A stretch of DNA of 28,927 nucleotides from a virus (IMGVR_UViG_3300020416_000041:1-28927); one strand, 5' to 3'; positions 584 to 6,755 are shown, counted from the first letter of the stretch. Made by a program: numbers and translations. Notes: generated by a model not told the origin, from the sequence alone.

Positions 584-1114
584 ATGAACTGGACAGCTCT
601 CGGTTTAGGCACCTTTCTCGGAGTCTCAAATATTGGCTTAATGGGTGCCTTAATAAACCAAGGAAGTTTACCTGTTGTTGATTTCCCTGTTGGTAGTTAT
701 ACGTCCTATGAGATGGAAGCTACTAAAAATGGTTATAAGATTCGATATAACGCTAATGATCCAAAAGTAATGATAAAAACAGAGAATGTTGTTAAACCTT
801 CTAGTGGTTTATTTAGTAAAGGTGCTACAACTGTCGATTTGTATGAGGAATATACGATGAATGGGAAAGTGCATTTAGAGGGTGGTGATGATGCTTCTAA
901 GCTTACTGCTAAGGAAATAGCCTGTATAAAAGCAGAAGGAGCTGGAGGCTCTACGGGAGGCGTCATAGGTGCCTCTGTCGGGGCTCAAGCCGCTCCTGCA
1001 CTTTCAAACATACCTATCATTGGTTGGGTAGCTGGCGGATGGGCAACAATGTTTGGTCAAAAAACAGGAGCTAATCTTGGGGGAGATATAGCTAAAGCTA
1101 TAGAAGGCTGCTAG
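584..1114 (+). CDS. Glycine-rich membrane-associated protein of unknown function
   Basis: This 176-residue protein has a hydrophobic N-terminal segment at about residues 4-24 that could be a signal anchor. A polar beta-rich middle follows. The C-terminal part, from about residue 117, is rich in Gly and Ala with spaced glycines, like glycine-zipper membrane segments. An upstream ATG at 566 is in frame, but the AGGCGGAG ribosome-binding site sits correctly for the ATG at 584, which I prefer. The stop overlaps the GTG start of the next gene by one base (TAGTG), implying coupled translation with the lysozyme/peptidase-like gene. A lysis or envelope role is inferred from context only; no family is recognised. 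Confidence 0.7.
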   Translation: MNWTALGLGTFLGVSNIGLMGALINQGSLPVVDFPVGSYTSYEMEATKNGYKIRYNANDPKVMIKTENVVKPSSGLFSKGATTVDLYEEYTMNGKVHLEGGDDASKLTAKEIACIKAEGAGGSTGGVIGASVGAQAAPALSNIPIIGWVAGGWATMFGQKTGANLGGDIAKAIEGC

Positions 1115-2274
1115 TGCCTATAACTCATCTTTCTGAAGCGGGTTTAGAATTTATCCGTCTTTTCGAGGGTGCATATTTATCATCTGAGGTAGTAAGTAGT
1201 TTAGAGAAAAAAGTTGCTGATTTAGTTACAGCTCCTGTAAATCAAAATCAATTTGATGCTTTATTTTCATTTGCTTCAAATATGGGAGTTGAGGTTCTTT
1301 CTAATTCAAAATTACTTGAACGTATAAACGCTCTAGAAGACCCTTCAAAGGTTGCTGAAGAGGAATTGCATAAATGGAATAAAGAAGGCAATAAAGTTTT
1401 TCATGGGCTTTCTAGGCGACGCTCAGCAGAGTTAGAGTTGTTTTGCCATAAACCATCTGAATTTAAATGGGGTTGGGTATTCATTACGTCAAAATGCCAC
1501 ACCTCTTTAAAAAAACGTCCTTTACCTGATAATGAACTTTCTTCTGATGAGATAGCAAAGATTTCTCCAAACCGTTTAATTCGACGATGCCGTGTTATAG
1601 AAAGAACTAAGGGTTATACATATTTAGAGTTTGGTTTTGGTTTAGGTGAATGGTGGGTTTTAGATAAACATTGGGATGGTTTAAAAACTGAAGTACGTAT
1701 TGAACCCTATGCTTGTGACGGTAATCTTATATATTTAAGAGATTTTCCCTATTTACATCGACCAGAAGAAGAGAGTGCTGGATGGGGTATTAGTCAATGT
1801 TGTGCTATTGCAATGTGCTTAAAATACCTAGATGCACCTGCTATTAACTGTATTAATGACTATATGAAGATTGTTAATAAGTACGGAAGATTAAATTTTC
1901 GAGGTAGTCATATTAAAGCAATGAGGGAATTTGGTTTTTGTGCAACATTTAATCATGTAACTGCTACTGAAGATATAAAAAATAATTTAAAACAAGGTTT
2001 ACCAGTTATAGGTGTTATTGCAGGACGTAGTATTCGCCAAGTTGGAGGAATGGCTTACAGTGTAGTCATTACTGGGTATGACGATGAGAATTGGTTAGTA
2101 CAAGATCCATTTGGAGAGTTAGATTTAATAGTAGGTCGATATAAAGACAGAGGCGCTGATGCTGGTAGAAATGTTCTTTATAATTCTGAATTATTTAATA
2201 AGCGTCTTTCTGTAGGAGGAGGTGTTGATGGTTGGTGCTGGTTAAACTTTCGAGAATGTACGGTTAAAGATTAA
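1114..2274 (+). CDS. Degenerate GH24 lysozyme fused to a C39-like peptidase-fold domain
   Basis: Residues 1-110 resemble the phage-type GH24 lysozyme fold. The N-terminal helix keeps the catalytic-type Glu18 (RLFEG), and the later helices are clear (NQNQFDALFSFA, then LLERIN and WNKEG). The catalytic lobe between them, which normally carries the Asp and the TIGYG loop, is missing: FEG runs directly into the later helix. Residues about 215-375 resemble a C39-like cysteine-peptidase fold, with ISQCC (Cys229/Cys230), GYDDENW and DPFGE (Asp331). The His expected just before the ITGYDD strand is replaced (GGMAYS, residues 311-316). The start is GTG, overlapping the upstream stop by one base. By motif it probably binds peptidoglycan or peptide rather than cutting it, perhaps as a structural tail protein. 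Fold assignment is fair; lack of activity is inference. Confidence 0.75.
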   Translation: MPITHLSEAGLEFIRLFEGAYLSSEVVSSLEKKVADLVTAPVNQNQFDALFSFASNMGVEVLSNSKLLERINALEDPSKVAEEELHKWNKEGNKVFHGLSRRRSAELELFCHKPSEFKWGWVFITSKCHTSLKKRPLPDNELSSDEIAKISPNRLIRRCRVIERTKGYTYLEFGFGLGEWWVLDKHWDGLKTEVRIEPYACDGNLIYLRDFPYLHRPEEESAGWGISQCCAIAMCLKYLDAPAINCINDYMKIVNKYGRLNFRGSHIKAMREFGFCATFNHVTATEDIKNNLKQGLPVIGVIAGRSIRQVGGMAYSVVITGYDDENWLVQDPFGELDLIVGRYKDRGADAGRNVLYNSELFNKRLSVGGGVDGWCWLNFRECTVKD

Positions 2275-2318
2275 GTAGAGTTATTCTCCTAAGTGGAGTT
2301 ATTTAAAACACACTTGTT

Positions 2319-2528
2319 ATGGCTGAAGCAGCTAAATCTCTTGAAGATCAGTTAAAAGATCAAAAACAACAACTAGAGGATAATATCAGGCAAACTGAGG
2401 CTCAGATGAGTAGACTTAAAGAACAGTATTTAAAGGTTCTAGGTGCTCTTGAGTTTGCTGCAATTCAAAAACAAGAGACTGAAGTTACTGCTGACGATTC
2501 CACCCCTACTGAGGATGTAACCTCTTAA
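2319..2528 (+). CDS. Small coiled-coil protein
   Basis: This is a 69-residue protein. Residues about 5-50 are a continuous charged heptad-like helix (repeated Leu/Gln/Glu/Lys, with Met30 and Leu33 in hydrophobic positions), followed by an acidic Thr/Asp/Glu tail. It lies 44 bp after the peptidase-like gene and 4 bp before the next gene, so it belongs to the same transcription unit. Short coiled-coil proteins of this kind occur often in cyanophage structural regions, but I recognise no defined function. The leader at 2275-2318 contains GAGTTATT twice, ten bases apart, and a GTGGAG that can act as the ribosome-binding site. Confidence 0.7.
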   Translation: MAEAAKSLEDQLKDQKQQLEDNIRQTEAQMSRLKEQYLKVLGALEFAAIQKQETEVTADDSTPTEDVTS

Positions 2529-2532
2529 AAAA

Positions 2533-2754
2533 ATGTTAGGTGAACTTAACAGAAATCGATATAAAGCCTTAGAATTACTAGCCGAACATGTACGAGCGCC
2601 GTCTCGTGAATTATCTCTTGATGCCATCATTTGTGATATCAGTGATGAAGATTTAAAGTGGGTTACAAATAAAGTTCATTATTATTTGCTTAAGCTTTTA
2701 GAAGATGCTGACTACGATCCTGCTGAAGAAGAGATAATTGAGTATATAAATTAG
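2533..2754 (+). CDS. Small acidic protein of unknown function
   Basis: This 73-residue protein looks mostly helical, with a basic N-terminal third (LNRNRYKALELL) and an acidic C-terminus (DADYDPAEEEIIEYIN). It starts four bases after the coiled-coil gene, so the two are probably co-transcribed and coupled. No signal, membrane segment or catalytic motif is visible. Codon use (A/T-ending codons) matches its neighbours, and an opposing-strand reading frame over this stretch is a shadow. The function is unknown. Confidence 0.65.
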   Translation: MLGELNRNRYKALELLAEHVRAPSRELSLDAIICDISDEDLKWVTNKVHYYLLKLLEDADYDPAEEEIIEYIN

Positions 2755-2806
2755 AAAATATACAAGTTTATGCAGATTAAAGTTTTGACAAGGATGCAAG
2801 GTAAAT

Positions 2807-3217
2807 GTGTATCATTGCGAGCAGGATCTTTTAACTCAACTAATTGTTTTATCGCCCAAAAATGCTCGACGAGAATTTAGAAACCATATTTTTGAAGAAT
2901 GGCGTTGGAAATGTGCATATTGTGATTCTGAATTAAATGATTCAACCGCAACAATTGATCATATAGTTCCAAAATTTAAAGGTGGTCATAATGTTAAATC
3001 GAATATGTGTTGTTGTTGTTCTAGTTGCAATAAAGATAAAGGATCTACCTTTCTAGAAGAATGGTATACGCCAGATTTAGATTATTATTGCAAAAAAAGA
3101 TTTGTTAAGATAAAGAATTGGATGGAGCAAAAACCAAGCTCTATTAAACTATTATCAGCAGATAAGGCTCACCCTTACATAGCAAATGACTTCTACATCG
3201 GATGGGTCACCAGTTGA
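2807..3217 (+). CDS. HNH endonuclease
   Basis: This 136-residue protein contains a clear zinc-supported HNH core. CAYC (Cys36, Cys39) begins the zinc knuckle, IDHIVP (Asp51-His52) is the first catalytic stretch, the following GGH/N residues supply the middle Asn/His, and CSSCN (Cys71, Cys74) closes the knuckle. HNH enzymes cut one or both DNA strands with a divalent metal. In phages they serve as homing nucleases, packaging cofactors or recombination enzymes. The start is GTG at 2807, preceded by AAGG at a good distance. It overlaps the following small gene by 32 bp. It is a compact free-standing nuclease with no intron or intein nearby, so its DNA target cannot be inferred. Confidence 0.85.
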   Translation: MYHCEQDLLTQLIVLSPKNARREFRNHIFEEWRWKCAYCDSELNDSTATIDHIVPKFKGGHNVKSNMCCCCSSCNKDKGSTFLEEWYTPDLDYYCKKRFVKIKNWMEQKPSSIKLLSADKAHPYIANDFYIGWVTS

Positions 3218-3380
3218 TCCACAAGCAAAAACTTTTTTAGATGAATATGTAAAAAATCCAGAAAGGTGGATAGGTAAGCGTATTGCAGAAGATTTACCAG
3301 CACCTGGGGATGGAGCATTAAATGGTGCTGTAAGAAATGATATTAAAGGAAAAGTTGATGCTGGAGTTATAAGAGTTTAA
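3186..3380 (+). CDS. Small protein of unknown function overlapping the HNH gene
   Basis: This 64-residue soluble protein is rich in Asp, Pro and Lys, with motifs such as DPQAKTFLDEY and a Gly/Ala-rich middle (PAPGDGALNGAV). The ATG at 3186 lies inside the end of the HNH gene, overlapping it by 32 bp. Its own unoverlapped part has codon use like the rest of the phage, and no other frame covers 3218-3376. The TAA stop overlaps the stop of the opposing oxygenase gene by four bases (TTAA at 3377-3380). The function is unknown. Confidence 0.6.
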   Translation: MTSTSDGSPVDPQAKTFLDEYVKNPERWIGKRIAEDLPAPGDGALNGAVRNDIKGKVDAGVIRV

Positions 3381-4183
3381 ACAGGACTCCAACTTCTCCA
3401 CCATTTAGTAATTATATATTTTTTACCTGAGATAGGTGGTAGAGCCTCATGTATTGTATTTACATTGTTTGTACCATCAATATTTCTATTGTTCCAAGCT
3501 AAGAGAGTTCCTTCTTTTGGTTTAACTTTTATATCTACATTAGGAAAATTAGTCTCTCCTCCTTCTTCTACATCATTTAGATAAAGCATAGTAGTCCAAC
3601 TTCTTTGTCCTCCCATTTCAGTGTATATTTTTAAATCTTCGTCTAAAAAATAATCTGAATGTCTTTTATAGAATTGCCCAATTTCGTATTTTTGACCCAT
3701 CATACCTTCTCCAATAAATGGATGTAACTCCATTACTTTGCTTAAACTCTTATCTATACTTAAGAAAAACTCATGATATGTCCAATTTAGAAATGTAGTG
3801 CTACTAGTTCTTTCATCTTCTTTATGCACTCTTACATCATCTTCTGAACCAACATCATGTAATACTGCTGGAACTGAATTTTCTTCTATATAACCTCTTA
3901 ATAATTGACAATCGATTTTAGATAAAAAATTATCAATATAATAAAGTTGTAAATTTGGATTATCTATTCTTTCAGCTTTTTTTGTTATTGCACAGTTATA
4001 AAACGCTTCAAAATCTATTTTTTCTGGTGGTGATTTGAAATTACAAGCCTCTATTAACCATTCTATTTCGTTATCCTTTATATCCAAAACTTGTTTACAA
4101 TGTCTTATTGCTGCTACTTTTGGTGTACCGCTTATTATAAGTTCTTTTAAAAGATTTACAGCCTGTCGTTTAGTTGAAGCCAT
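3377..4183 (-). CDS. 2-oxoglutarate/Fe(II)-dependent oxygenase (prolyl 4-hydroxylase type)
   Basis: The C-terminal half of this 268-residue protein is a typical 2OG-Fe(II) dioxygenase. The iron ligands are His175 and Asp177 (RHSDY) and His245 (TIHEALPP), and the 2-oxoglutarate anchor is Lys255 (GKKYIITKWW). Between them lie the expected strands (TTMLYLNDVEEGGETNFP) and LLAWNN. Such enzymes couple 2-oxoglutarate decarboxylation to hydroxylation of protein side chains or other substrates. Many marine cyanophages carry several of unknown substrate. The N-terminal 60-80 residues are helical and basic (KRQAVNLLKELI), perhaps a partner-binding part. The gene is alone on this strand between two + blocks. 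Its stop shares TTAA with the upstream small gene's stop, and it is divergent from the NblA-like gene. Confidence 0.9.
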   Translation of the reverse strand: MASTKRQAVNLLKELIISGTPKVAAIRHCKQVLDIKDNEIEWLIEACNFKSPPEKIDFEAFYNCAITKKAERIDNPNLQLYYIDNFLSKIDCQLLRGYIEENSVPAVLHDVGSEDDVRVHKEDERTSSTTFLNWTYHEFFLSIDKSLSKVMELHPFIGEGMMGQKYEIGQFYKRHSDYFLDEDLKIYTEMGGQRSWTTMLYLNDVEEGGETNFPNVDIKVKPKEGTLLAWNNRNIDGTNNVNTIHEALPPISGKKYIITKWWRSWSPV

Positions 4184-4401
4184 ATTAAAATAGATACTAT
4201 AGGTACAGTCTATAGAAAAATGCAGTTAATAGCATTATCTTTTCTATTGTTTTTTAGTAGCACCTATTGTTGCAGCACTGTTTTTTTACACCATAATGCT
4301 CATCTTCACAAGAAAAAAGTCATAAAAAAGAATCAGCATACCTAAGTGTTATTGCTCTTTAATTCAGTCTTGGTAAGATAACTATAAGGTTTTAGCTATT
4401 T
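4184..4401. promoter_or_regulatory. Divergent intergenic region between oxygenase and NblA-like gene
   Basis: This 218-bp region must hold the divergent promoters for the oxygenase (-) and the NblA-like gene (+). CTATAG occurs twice (4197-4202 and 4210-4215), and the TATAGT/TACTAT stretch could be a -10 element in either direction. No clear TTGACA box is seen. The middle contains a possible small hydrophobic reading frame, described separately. Promoter placement is inference from gene orientation and AT-rich boxes. Confidence 0.35.
4220..4345 (+). CDS. Possible tiny hydrophobic ORF, perhaps frameshifted
   Basis: ATG at 4220 opens a 41-codon frame with a hydrophobic N-terminus (MQLIALSFLLFF), after which it becomes Cys/His/Lys-rich and unconvincing. 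The frame one base further, downstream of the six-T run at 4250-4255, reads as a continuous membrane segment (LVAPIVAALFFYTIMLIF) ending TRKKS at 4325. A one-base change in the T run would join them into a plausible 35-residue single-span membrane peptide. No good ribosome-binding site precedes the ATG. It could equally be non-coding leader sequence. Confidence 0.2.
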   Translation: MQLIALSFLLFFSSTYCCSTVFLHHNAHLHKKKVIKKNQHT

Positions 4402-4617
4402 ATGGATGCAATCGAGCTTCCAATGGACGTTGAATTTCAAATTCACGCCACTGCATTAGCGATTCAACAATTAGATCGTGATGACTTAGAGGAAGCCTTT
4501 ATTGAAATGCTCCATCAAAGAGCATTAGATCGTCAAATGTTTTATGGCGTTCTAAAAGATCACGGCATTGACGCCGACATTAAATTCAACATCTCCACTG
4601 TGGGACAGGTTTCTTAA
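4402..4617 (+). CDS. nblA: NblA-like phycobilisome degradation adaptor
   Basis: This 71-residue helical protein fits the NblA pattern along its length. An IEL start and a phenylalanine-containing first helix (EFQIHATALAIQQL) are followed by a polar turn. A long second helix then ends in Arg-Gln, Tyr and a LLK-like stretch, before a short tail (DRQMFYGVLKDHGIDAD). NblA binds phycobiliproteins and the ClpC chaperone and directs phycobilisomes to proteolysis during starvation. Cyanophage copies are known and may release amino acids or adjust light harvesting during infection. The gene opens a + block and lies 5 bp before a beta-rich protein gene. Similarity was judged from memory of NblA sequences, so an unrelated small helical phage protein remains possible. 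Confidence 0.6.
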   Translation: MDAIELPMDVEFQIHATALAIQQLDRDDLEEAFIEMLHQRALDRQMFYGVLKDHGIDADIKFNISTVGQVS

Positions 4618-4622
4618 ATACT

Positions 4623-5006
4623 ATGGCTACTCGCACTATTGAAGGCACTTTAGACACATTTAGTGTCGATACTGGCTCTGAAGTTACTTATCTTGGTGCA
4701 ACGTCATCAGGTAATAAAGGGGAGGCTGTTAGAGCTTTCCGTGTCAATCCAGGAGGTACTGGAAACATTATTGTCAAGCTTGATAAGACTAGTGGTGTAA
4801 ATACAATGGAAATATTTCAAGAAGATGCTTATACAGGCAGCAGTGCTGCTACTGGTTATGAGGTTGTTACGAATATAGCTAAAGATGGTAAAGGTAAAGG
4901 TGCTGTTGGAGTTGCAGTAACTAACGCAGCTAAAGATTATGTTGTTCTACTTGGTTTAGATGGTTATTCTGAAGTAAGTTATAACGGCAGCGTTGACGTC
5001 CCATAA
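4623..5006 (+). CDS. Beta-rich protein of unknown function (possible virion protein)
   Basis: This 127-residue protein is rich in Gly, Thr, Val and Ser with alternating hydrophobic residues (EVTYLGATSSG, FRVNPGGTGNIIVKL, AVGVAVTNAAKDYVVLLGL), suggesting a beta-sandwich. It has no signal peptide and no catalytic motif. The spacing to the NblA-like gene is 5 bp, and its end overlaps the TTG start of the next gene by 14 bp, so all three are likely one operon. The composition suits a small decoration or tail-associated protein, but this is a guess; no family is recognised. Confidence 0.7.
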   Translation: MATRTIEGTLDTFSVDTGSEVTYLGATSSGNKGEAVRAFRVNPGGTGNIIVKLDKTSGVNTMEIFQEDAYTGSSAATGYEVVTNIAKDGKGKGAVGVAVTNAAKDYVVLLGLDGYSEVSYNGSVDVP

Positions 5007-5739
5007 GAAGGAACGTAGAAATCAAAATTGGAAACAACATCCTTTTCTTACTTGGAAAGGTATAGAACTTATAAAAAGTTATTCACCAGCCCGTACATAT
5101 ATAGGTATGGGTCGGTATGCAGCGTATAAAGATTATGGCGAAGATATTTGGCGAATAGGCTATGGAAGTAAAAAATTTGGAAAAAGGTGGTTAAAATCTA
5201 ATGATATTGCTACTGAAAAAGAAATTGAACAACAACTAATAGAAGATTTAAAAGAATTTTCTGATTTAGTTTCTCAATATGTCTTTGTACCTTTAAATAT
5301 AAATAAAAAAGCAGCTTTATTGAGTTTTGCGTTCAGTATTGGTATTAGCTCTTTAAAAACTTGCCGTCTTCTTGATTTAATTAACAGTTCTGCTCCTAAA
5401 ACAGCTTTAATTCGTGAATGGAGCCCTTATATCAATCGCTTGTGGTGTTCAGGTGGAGATCTGATGATAGATCAACGTCGTATGGAACTGGATACGTATC
5501 TGGCTCCTGACAAGACAATTCCAACTTTTGTTCCTCATCGGTGTCATTTGAAGAAATGCTTATTAAATCTCCCTGAGACGTATACTGGGGCTCCCAATCA
5601 GCTGAAAGCAATTGAATATCTTGAGAAAAAGTTGGTTCAGTGGGATTCATCTGGGGAAGTGTTACGACGTTTTTTTCGTTATTGGTCTGAGAAGCCACGT
5701 AGTCTAGGATCTCCCCAGCGGCGAAAGGGTCCCGACTAA
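4993..5739 (+). CDS. Second GH24 lysozyme-like protein, catalytic Glu missing
   Basis: This 248-residue protein begins with TTG at 4993. Residues 17-165 follow the GH24 lysozyme order: an N-terminal helix (KGIELIKSY), then YKDYGEDIWRIGYGS (the usual D..G..TIGYG loop), then a helical lobe (NINKKAALLSFAFSIG, LLDLIN, IDQRRMEL). The first helix ends SYSPA instead of the FEG-type catalytic Glu, and Arg replaces the Thr before IGYG. The YKD Asp is kept. This is the converse of the protein at 1114, which keeps the Glu but lacks the loop. The C-terminal 80 residues form a basic extension with HRCHLKKC and a helical end. It probably binds peptidoglycan without cutting it, perhaps in the tail. The last 308 bp overlap a gene on the other strand. 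Confidence 0.7.
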   Translation: MTSHKKERRNQNWKQHPFLTWKGIELIKSYSPARTYIGMGRYAAYKDYGEDIWRIGYGSKKFGKRWLKSNDIATEKEIEQQLIEDLKEFSDLVSQYVFVPLNINKKAALLSFAFSIGISSLKTCRLLDLINSSAPKTALIREWSPYINRLWCSGGDLMIDQRRMELDTYLAPDKTIPTFVPHRCHLKKCLLNLPETYTGAPNQLKAIEYLEKKLVQWDSSGEVLRRFFRYWSEKPRSLGSPQRRKGPD

Positions 5740-6128: not shown

Positions 6129-6755
6129 CTAATTAATAACTTTACCTATATGTGAAAAGATTTCCACAAATTTATCGGCTTGTTGGAAACCAAACTCTAA
6201 TTTTGGTAGATATATAAAATAACCCCAAAACATAGGTGTTTTTAATGTAAATAAATCCTTCCCATGTATGGTGTTTGCCCTTTCATAGGGTATACAAACT
6301 GGATAATCCCACATTTCTGGTAAAATTCTCATCATTTCAGGATATGTAGTAAAAAATAATGCTTCAGGAATGTTTCTTAGTTTCCATTCTCTTAATAACC
6401 GTTGAAACCAAATAATAGAAGGTGCTTTAGCTGCACCACCAGCTCTTTTACTCCATCTCCATGTACCTCTTTGTTTACTAAATGAACATCTTCCATAGGT
6501 AGGTGGAAATAAATATGTTGTACCTGTCCAAGGATCTTGCATATTTAATCCATCCTCTTTTAATGTATATATTTTTTTTGCTCTTAAAAATTGTGCATTT
6601 GCATTATGTGTAGAGCAAGGATCAAGATCAATATCACCTAGTAATGCACTTATATAAGGTATGTAATCAGCGGGAGTTAACCAATCATCCTCGATATGGA
6701 GGATTCTTCCAAGAATAAATTTATATTGTCGCCATGAGAGAGGTCGTTTTTTCAC
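6129..6755 (-). CDS. Phage DNA N6-adenine methyltransferase-like protein with altered NPPY motif
   Basis: This 208-residue protein follows the phage N6A-methyltransferase (Dam-like) order. WLTP comes near residue 25, then GDIDLDPCSTHNAN, then EDGL, W and the position of the catalytic (N/D)PPY motif, then helices and PMFWGYFIYLP near the end. In active enzymes the NPPY/DPPY loop holds the target adenine for methyl transfer from S-adenosylmethionine. Here it reads FPPTYG, so the first acidic or amide residue is Phe and a Thr is inserted. This suggests altered or lost catalysis. The start is GTG in a GTGA overlap with the upstream stop. Modification could protect phage DNA from restriction if activity remains. 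Confidence 0.65.
   Translation of the reverse strand: MKKRPLSWRQYKFILGRILHIEDDWLTPADYIPYISALLGDIDLDPCSTHNANAQFLRAKKIYTLKEDGLNMQDPWTGTTYLFPPTYGRCSFSKQRGTWRWSKRAGGAAKAPSIIWFQRLLREWKLRNIPEALFFTTYPEMMRILPEMWDYPVCIPYERANTIHGKDLFTLKTPMFWGYFIYLPKLEFGFQQADKFVEIFSHIGKVIN

Follow-up and report, generated by a model that had tools for sequence, protein, structure and literature searches.

In phage lysozymes of the GH24 family, Cys in place of the catalytic Asp is a known active variant, seen in the lysozyme of phage P1 and in T4 D20C (PMC8228626). The muramidase domain of SpmX is a GH24 domain that serves protein contacts and localisation, with undetectable lysozyme activity (PMC5347347). The truncated secondary product of the CTP1L endolysin is described as a non-catalytic lysin part that acts as a partner (PMC4777826). 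Among cyanophages, the lysozyme gp054 of S-CBS2 (ADF42410) carries a complete GH24 domain, a "PHQ" domain and a C39 domain with Cys and His present; PHQ is our own name, taken from a motif, for a short domain that lies beside C39 in cyanophage endolysins. The protein AHV82130 of Synechococcus phage S-EIV1 combines PHQ, a putative glucosaminidase and a C39 domain, again with Cys and His. In the open-access literature, no described inactive phage lysozymes of the kind reported below were found.

The virus record analysed here comprises 28,927 bases (the window). Judged on the genes tested, S-EIV1 is its only close cultured relative: the primases agree at 34% over 97% of the length, and the gene at 7137-7772 matches S-EIV1 at 49% and no other phage. 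Two separate genes of the window, P1 (1114-2274) and P2 (4993-5739), encode relatives of lysozymes. Our best explanation, to which we give a probability of about 0.7 as a whole, is that both are relics of two different peptidoglycan hydrolases in an uncultured marine cyanophage lineage related to S-EIV1, two dead lysins whose catalysis probably went in succession and whose proteins were retained non-catalytically, with no shared site. The P1 protein shares the order of GH24 and C39 with S-CBS2 gp054, which is the closest isolate (32.6% over most of the length); unlike gp054, it has an SH3-like domain in the place of PHQ, and neither its GH24 nor its C39 site is complete. The C39 domain of AHV82130, from the nearest cultured relative, is related to that of P1, but that protein bears, by the appearance of its sequence, a different sugar-cutting domain. 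P1 and P2 each match the fold of SpmX (Caulobacter/Asticcacaulis; PDB 6h9d); SpmX is, however, bacterial and keeps the catalytic Glu, whereas the two viral proteins have lost either the beta-lobe or the Glu. The CTP1L product comes from the same gene as the endolysin, whereas P1 and P2 are separate genes.

The P1 gene, on the plus strand with a GTG start, encodes a modular endolysin relative of 386 aa, in which a GH24 remnant (residues 1-112; 1114-1449) is followed by an all-beta middle domain (residues about 113-208; 1450-1737), recognised from predicted strands and called SH3-like by resemblance, and by a C39/papain-like domain (residues 209-386; 1738-2271), identified by profile, Foldseek and alignments. 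The Phage_lysozyme profile PF00959 matches P1 at 1.4e-20 over profile positions 44-125 only. The protein reads ...IRLFEGAYLSSEVVSSLEKK...NQNQFDAL, in which the FEG motif with Glu18 leads, a few residues on, into the distal helices; the junction lies at about 1177-1185 in the DNA, and alignment with intact relatives puts the absent stretch, the beta-lobe (YxDxxGVxTIGYGHTGPDVK...), at about 35-40 residues. The AlphaFold2 model built from 30 sequences (mean pLDDT 89.6, pTM 0.83) likewise has no beta-lobe: helices 8-18 and 24-37 are directly consecutive (block pLDDT about 83-96), and the all-beta domain and then an alpha/beta domain come after them. With the whole model, the top PDB fold match in Foldseek was 8b2s, a GH24 protein with an SH3-like domain, while its parts matched GH24 muramidases and C39/papain-like peptidases, PCAT1 and ComA among them (PDB 3erv, 7n87 and 6mpz). 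The earlier note had described P1 as keeping Glu18 and the distal helices with no TIGYG loop, and the profile, alignment and model bear this out.

The degeneration of P1 is wider than the earlier note had seen, which had missed the damage to the C39 domain. In each of 21 related records searched, the C39 family PF13529 was found once; it reached 3.4e-15 in one intact relative, and the score of the window's P1 was under the cut-off. At the nucleophile position Cys is replaced by Ser227 (codon 1792-1794) and at the His position stands Tyr315 (codon 2056-2058), with Asp331 retained, so that P1 has the fold of a C39-type cysteine peptidase and lacks its catalytic Cys and His. Of the beta-deleted P1 in which this residue can be read, only that of the window has Tyr here, and the Tyr may be a sequencing error.

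Relatives of P1 were compared in an alignment of 144 distinct sequences, including GH24 proteins that have no C39 part. In 55 of them, the intact P1 (L111 and L019 among many others), the GH24 triad Glu-Asp/Cys-Thr is complete and all readable C39 catalytic residues are present. Another 50 have a broken GH24 domain, 16 by the same beta-lobe deletion with Glu18 kept (16/16) and 34 by absence of the domain, and all 50 have also lost the C39 Cys and/or His. The remainder are partial, have an unrelated C-terminal part or carry GH24 and C39 in separate frames. Three cases of the last kind (L246:579-1820, L248:490-1731 and L251:3256-4494) have intact residues; either the endolysin is naturally in two pieces there or the frame has shifted.

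The P2 gene, also on the plus strand, has a TTG start that overlaps the upstream gene by 14 nt and encodes 248 aa, with a degenerate GH24 domain (residues about 15-170; 5035-5502), placed by alignments and Foldseek, and a C-terminal endolysin-associated PHQ domain (residues about 182-235; 5536-5697), placed by an isolate HMM and hhalign. It matches PF00959 at 6.9e-17 over profile positions 7-105, and its GH24 part retains the full length. The protein reads ...IKSYSPARTYIGMGRYAAYKDYGEDIWRIGYGS; Ser31 (5083-5085), which is no acid, occupies the Glu position, Asp47 (5131-5133) is present, Arg54 (5152-5154) occupies the position of the catalytic Thr, and about seven residues are inserted between residues 32 and 41. 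The missing Glu and the lost Thr, which the earlier note had read from the window, are no accident of one sequence, for in an alignment of 89 distinct P2 sequences residue 31 is D or E in none, and residue 54 is R in 75 and K in 13 of the 88 that are readable. Five P2 sequences have a Glu one residue after position 31. In the model, block pLDDT exceeds 80 over residues 11-140 and the C-terminal part is poor; Foldseek returned P22 lysozyme, SpmX and AbLys1. The earlier note had asked for predicted structures of each protein alone; these give a confident P1 with no beta-lobe and a P2 with a modelled GH24 domain and GH24 fold matches. Both proteins are homologous to GH24 by profile and by fold, and in neither does Glu-X8-(Asp/Cys)-X5-Thr occur in one chain, since P1 has no Asp/Thr loop and P2 neither Glu nor Thr.

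The C-terminal domain of P2 resembles a domain of the cyanophage endolysins of S-EIV1, S-CBS1, S-CBS2, PSS2, MA10 and S-CBP2. When the PHQ HMM made from isolates is searched, only its S-CBS2 source ranks ahead of the P2 proteins (best single-domain E 9e-4), and hhalign gives a probability of 95.7%. The relationship is recovered by profiles only, and weakly; tblastn of the C-terminal piece against the phage collection gave no match at E up to 1.

An intact counterpart of P2 exists in S-EIV1. The "lysozyme" AHV82244 (KJ410740 73216-73881) has, like P2, a GH24 domain and a C-terminal domain, but it reads KYEGYSERAYPD...YTLGYGS, with Glu, Asp and Thr retained in one chain and the insertion of P2 absent. 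It matches the P2 profile modestly (7.4e-9), and the assignment rests partly on gene order: as with P2, its neighbours are homologues of a conserved 71-aa gene (4402-4617, plus strand), which adjoins the S-EIV1 orthologue too, and of the genes at 6129, 6752 and 7137. The last three have homologues near the P2-type gene in 9 of 10 contigs compared, the short contig L322 having none of them. Directly upstream of P2 lies a conserved small protein (4623-5006, plus strand), syntenic in relatives, for which no Pfam family and no phage match was found. Among 36 uncultured P2-type relatives, the Glu is kept in all 36, followed by Asp or Asn and Thr or Ser. Two further hits, L325 and L326, are no lysozymes, judged on sequence. 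Another S-EIV1 protein that GenBank names "lysozyme" (AHV82128, 102 aa; L139:2340-2648) shows no lysozyme motif by eye. The state of the S-EIV1 P2-type protein is probably ancestral, given its likeness to GH24 lysozymes generally. The earlier note had asked whether the losses extend throughout the relatives; they do within their clades, in all beta-deleted P1 and all P2, and intact relatives are found elsewhere.

The order of the losses was followed on a tree for 79 genomes (an earlier one had 34), built from P2 together with at most five of its neighbours. Broken P1 falls into two clades, of 31 and 14 genomes, and the 34 genomes outside count as intact, including L287, whose C39 site is intact in a frame that lacks GH24. 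Between intact and broken P1 two changes suffice, although some of the branches that call for a second change lack strong support. P2 is degenerate beside intact and broken P1 alike: P2 with no Glu accompanies a complete-triad P1 in 33 genomes with distinct P2, and in 33 more a P1 that has no GH24 and a broken C39, P2 being degenerate there in just the same manner. Because P2 is degenerate on both sides of the P1 split, its loss came first, and the two losses are, as far as the sequences tell, sequential and not reciprocal. In the course that alignment and tree show, the P2-type gene, which encodes a complete lysozyme in the sister lineage of S-EIV1, lost its Glu and Thr and gained the insertion in all sampled members of the window's larger group. 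The P1-type endolysin, in its intact state a GH24 domain with Glu-Asp/Cys-Thr, an SH3-like domain and a C39 peptidase with Gln-Cys-His-Asp, then stayed intact in most lineages and was disabled in two clades, where the GH24 beta-lobe or the whole domain disappeared and the C39 domain shed Cys and/or His.

The earlier note had raised, more speculatively, a single GH24 site split between the two proteins and completed in a complex, with P1 giving the Glu and P2 the Asp and loop. The window does hold complementary parts, and Glu18 persists in all beta-deleted P1. The state of P2 is nevertheless independent of that of P1, which is not the co-occurrence expected of a split lysozyme, P2 has Arg or Lys where such a site needs Thr, and the relatives with all residues in one chain, named beforehand as the finding that would speak against it, exist at both places. 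The co-occurrence table and these relatives contradict complementation, and we leave it next to no chance. Relaxed decay, with both proteins as functionless leftovers on the way out, would suit the way in which P1 has eroded step by step (beta-lobe, the GH24 domain as a whole, Cys, Gln and, in the window, His), but open frames and gene order are conserved across the relatives compared, and every domain is under purifying selection. By a simple Nei-Gojobori estimate over pairs of sequences, the GH24 remnant, SH3-like and C39 domains of P1 have median dN/dS values of 0.16, 0.24 and 0.30, and the GH24 and C-terminal domains of P2 have 0.11 and 0.18. Decay is accordingly very improbable to us, and the purifying selection on both proteins makes non-catalytic reuse the best reading, which the earlier note had also preferred and which fits sites that are degenerate throughout their clades.

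Activity in a changed form was weighed for each protein. P2 could still be a muramidase with a rearranged site in which Asp47 and/or Glu50 act with Arg54; no other domain measured is as constrained as its GH24 part, 92% of sequences have acids at positions 47 and 50, position 54 is basic throughout, and no other wall hydrolase was recognised in the related contigs G001 and G004. Published structures of this endolysin family, however, all have Glu-X8-(Asp/Cys)-X5-Thr (PMC8228626), 7 sequences have N at residue 47 and 7 of 88 have S or A at residue 50, and Glu50 is no new replacement, since the intact protein of S-EIV1 has its counterpart (GGEPYT). We consider such activity unlikely, and Glu50 as a newly evolved catalytic residue is disfavoured by the same variability and counterpart; another acid in the missing position was sought by column conservation. 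P1 might likewise remain a lysin as a peptidase with a Ser nucleophile, since Ser is the usual replacement of Cys, His and Asp are retained in most beta-deleted relatives and the C39 fold is modelled with high confidence. Against this, Tyr takes the place of the His both in the window and across most of the second broken clade, L210/L211 have Ala for the Cys, the Gln is often lost among broken P1, and the isolate C39 domains comparable at the nucleophile region have Cys throughout; a Ser peptidase is a poor prospect. The preferred reading, two dead lysins kept non-catalytically, takes the catalytic death of both proteins as probable from their sequences and predicted folds; the retention of Glu18 in all 16 beta-deleted P1 speaks against it. 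Both would then have been kept for a job that falls to what is left of them, the helical lobe and the SH3-like, C39-like and C-terminal domains. Wall binding or the binding of a lysis or virion partner is most likely, and the wall-binding and structural roles are putative.

The genes around P1 and P2 bear on how such a phage would lyse its host. Upstream of P1, on the plus strand, lie a DUF6450 membrane-protein gene (34-558; PF20048 1.6e-29, PHROG 2714 2.7e-53), which may in fact begin further on, at an ATG near 91, and a phrog_605 protein gene (566-1114; PHROG 605 1.8e-55), whose end overlaps the start of P1. All 45 broken P1 for which the sequence reaches far enough have DUF6450 at most 1.3 kb upstream, whereas 4 of 57 intact P1 do; two of these four, L208 and L189, stand beside the broken clades in the tree. 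Most broken P1, and many intact ones, have some membrane-protein gene upstream, which would be a candidate holin gene if the region were a holin-endolysin cassette. DUF6450 and phrog_605 also lie close together in the cyanomyoviruses P-SSM4 and SynMITS9220M01, where neither PF00959 nor PF13529 has a match; DUF6450 is equally present in MA10 and S-B68, which do have a PF00959 or PF13529 match, so the link to lysis is only a lead. Between P1 and P2, an HNH endonuclease gene (2807-3217) adjoins P1 and a 2OG-Fe(II) oxygenase gene lies on the minus strand (3377-4183); the oxygenase is present in some relatives and undetected in others at the same place, and detection of the HNH gene is also variable.

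Among the frames of 100 aa or more in G004 (79.6 kb; the P2 gene, crossed by a cut, fell outside the set) and most such frames in 60.0 of the 60.1 kb of G001 (25 of 26 families displayed), Pfam at E up to 0.01 listed no other wall-hydrolase family. Searches of the 21 related records for Glucosaminidase (GH73) and Amidase_2 found none. At about 80 kb, against 79,178 bases for circular S-EIV1, and with P2 at different distances from the ends, G003 and G004 are suggested to be near-complete genomes. G004 (L127/L128) also has a photosystem reaction-centre (Photo_RC) match and a family A DNA polymerase. With P1 and P2 as the sole recognisable wall hydrolases in the two scanned contigs, either a lysin that escapes recognition is needed or one of the two is active after all. 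It is conceivable, if doubtful, that this cyanophage clade, with both ancestral lysins dead and kept as binding parts, does without a canonical peptidoglycan hydrolase and lyses its host by an unrecognised enzyme or by way of the DUF6450/phrog_605 membrane proteins.

P1 and P2 would therefore be a stepwise record of two phage lysins that shed catalysis while the proteins were retained. Judged on its best-covered genomes, a group of marine cyanophages appears to be left with no recognisable working lysin, which makes it a promising place to look for a new lysis mechanism and for the role of DUF6450.
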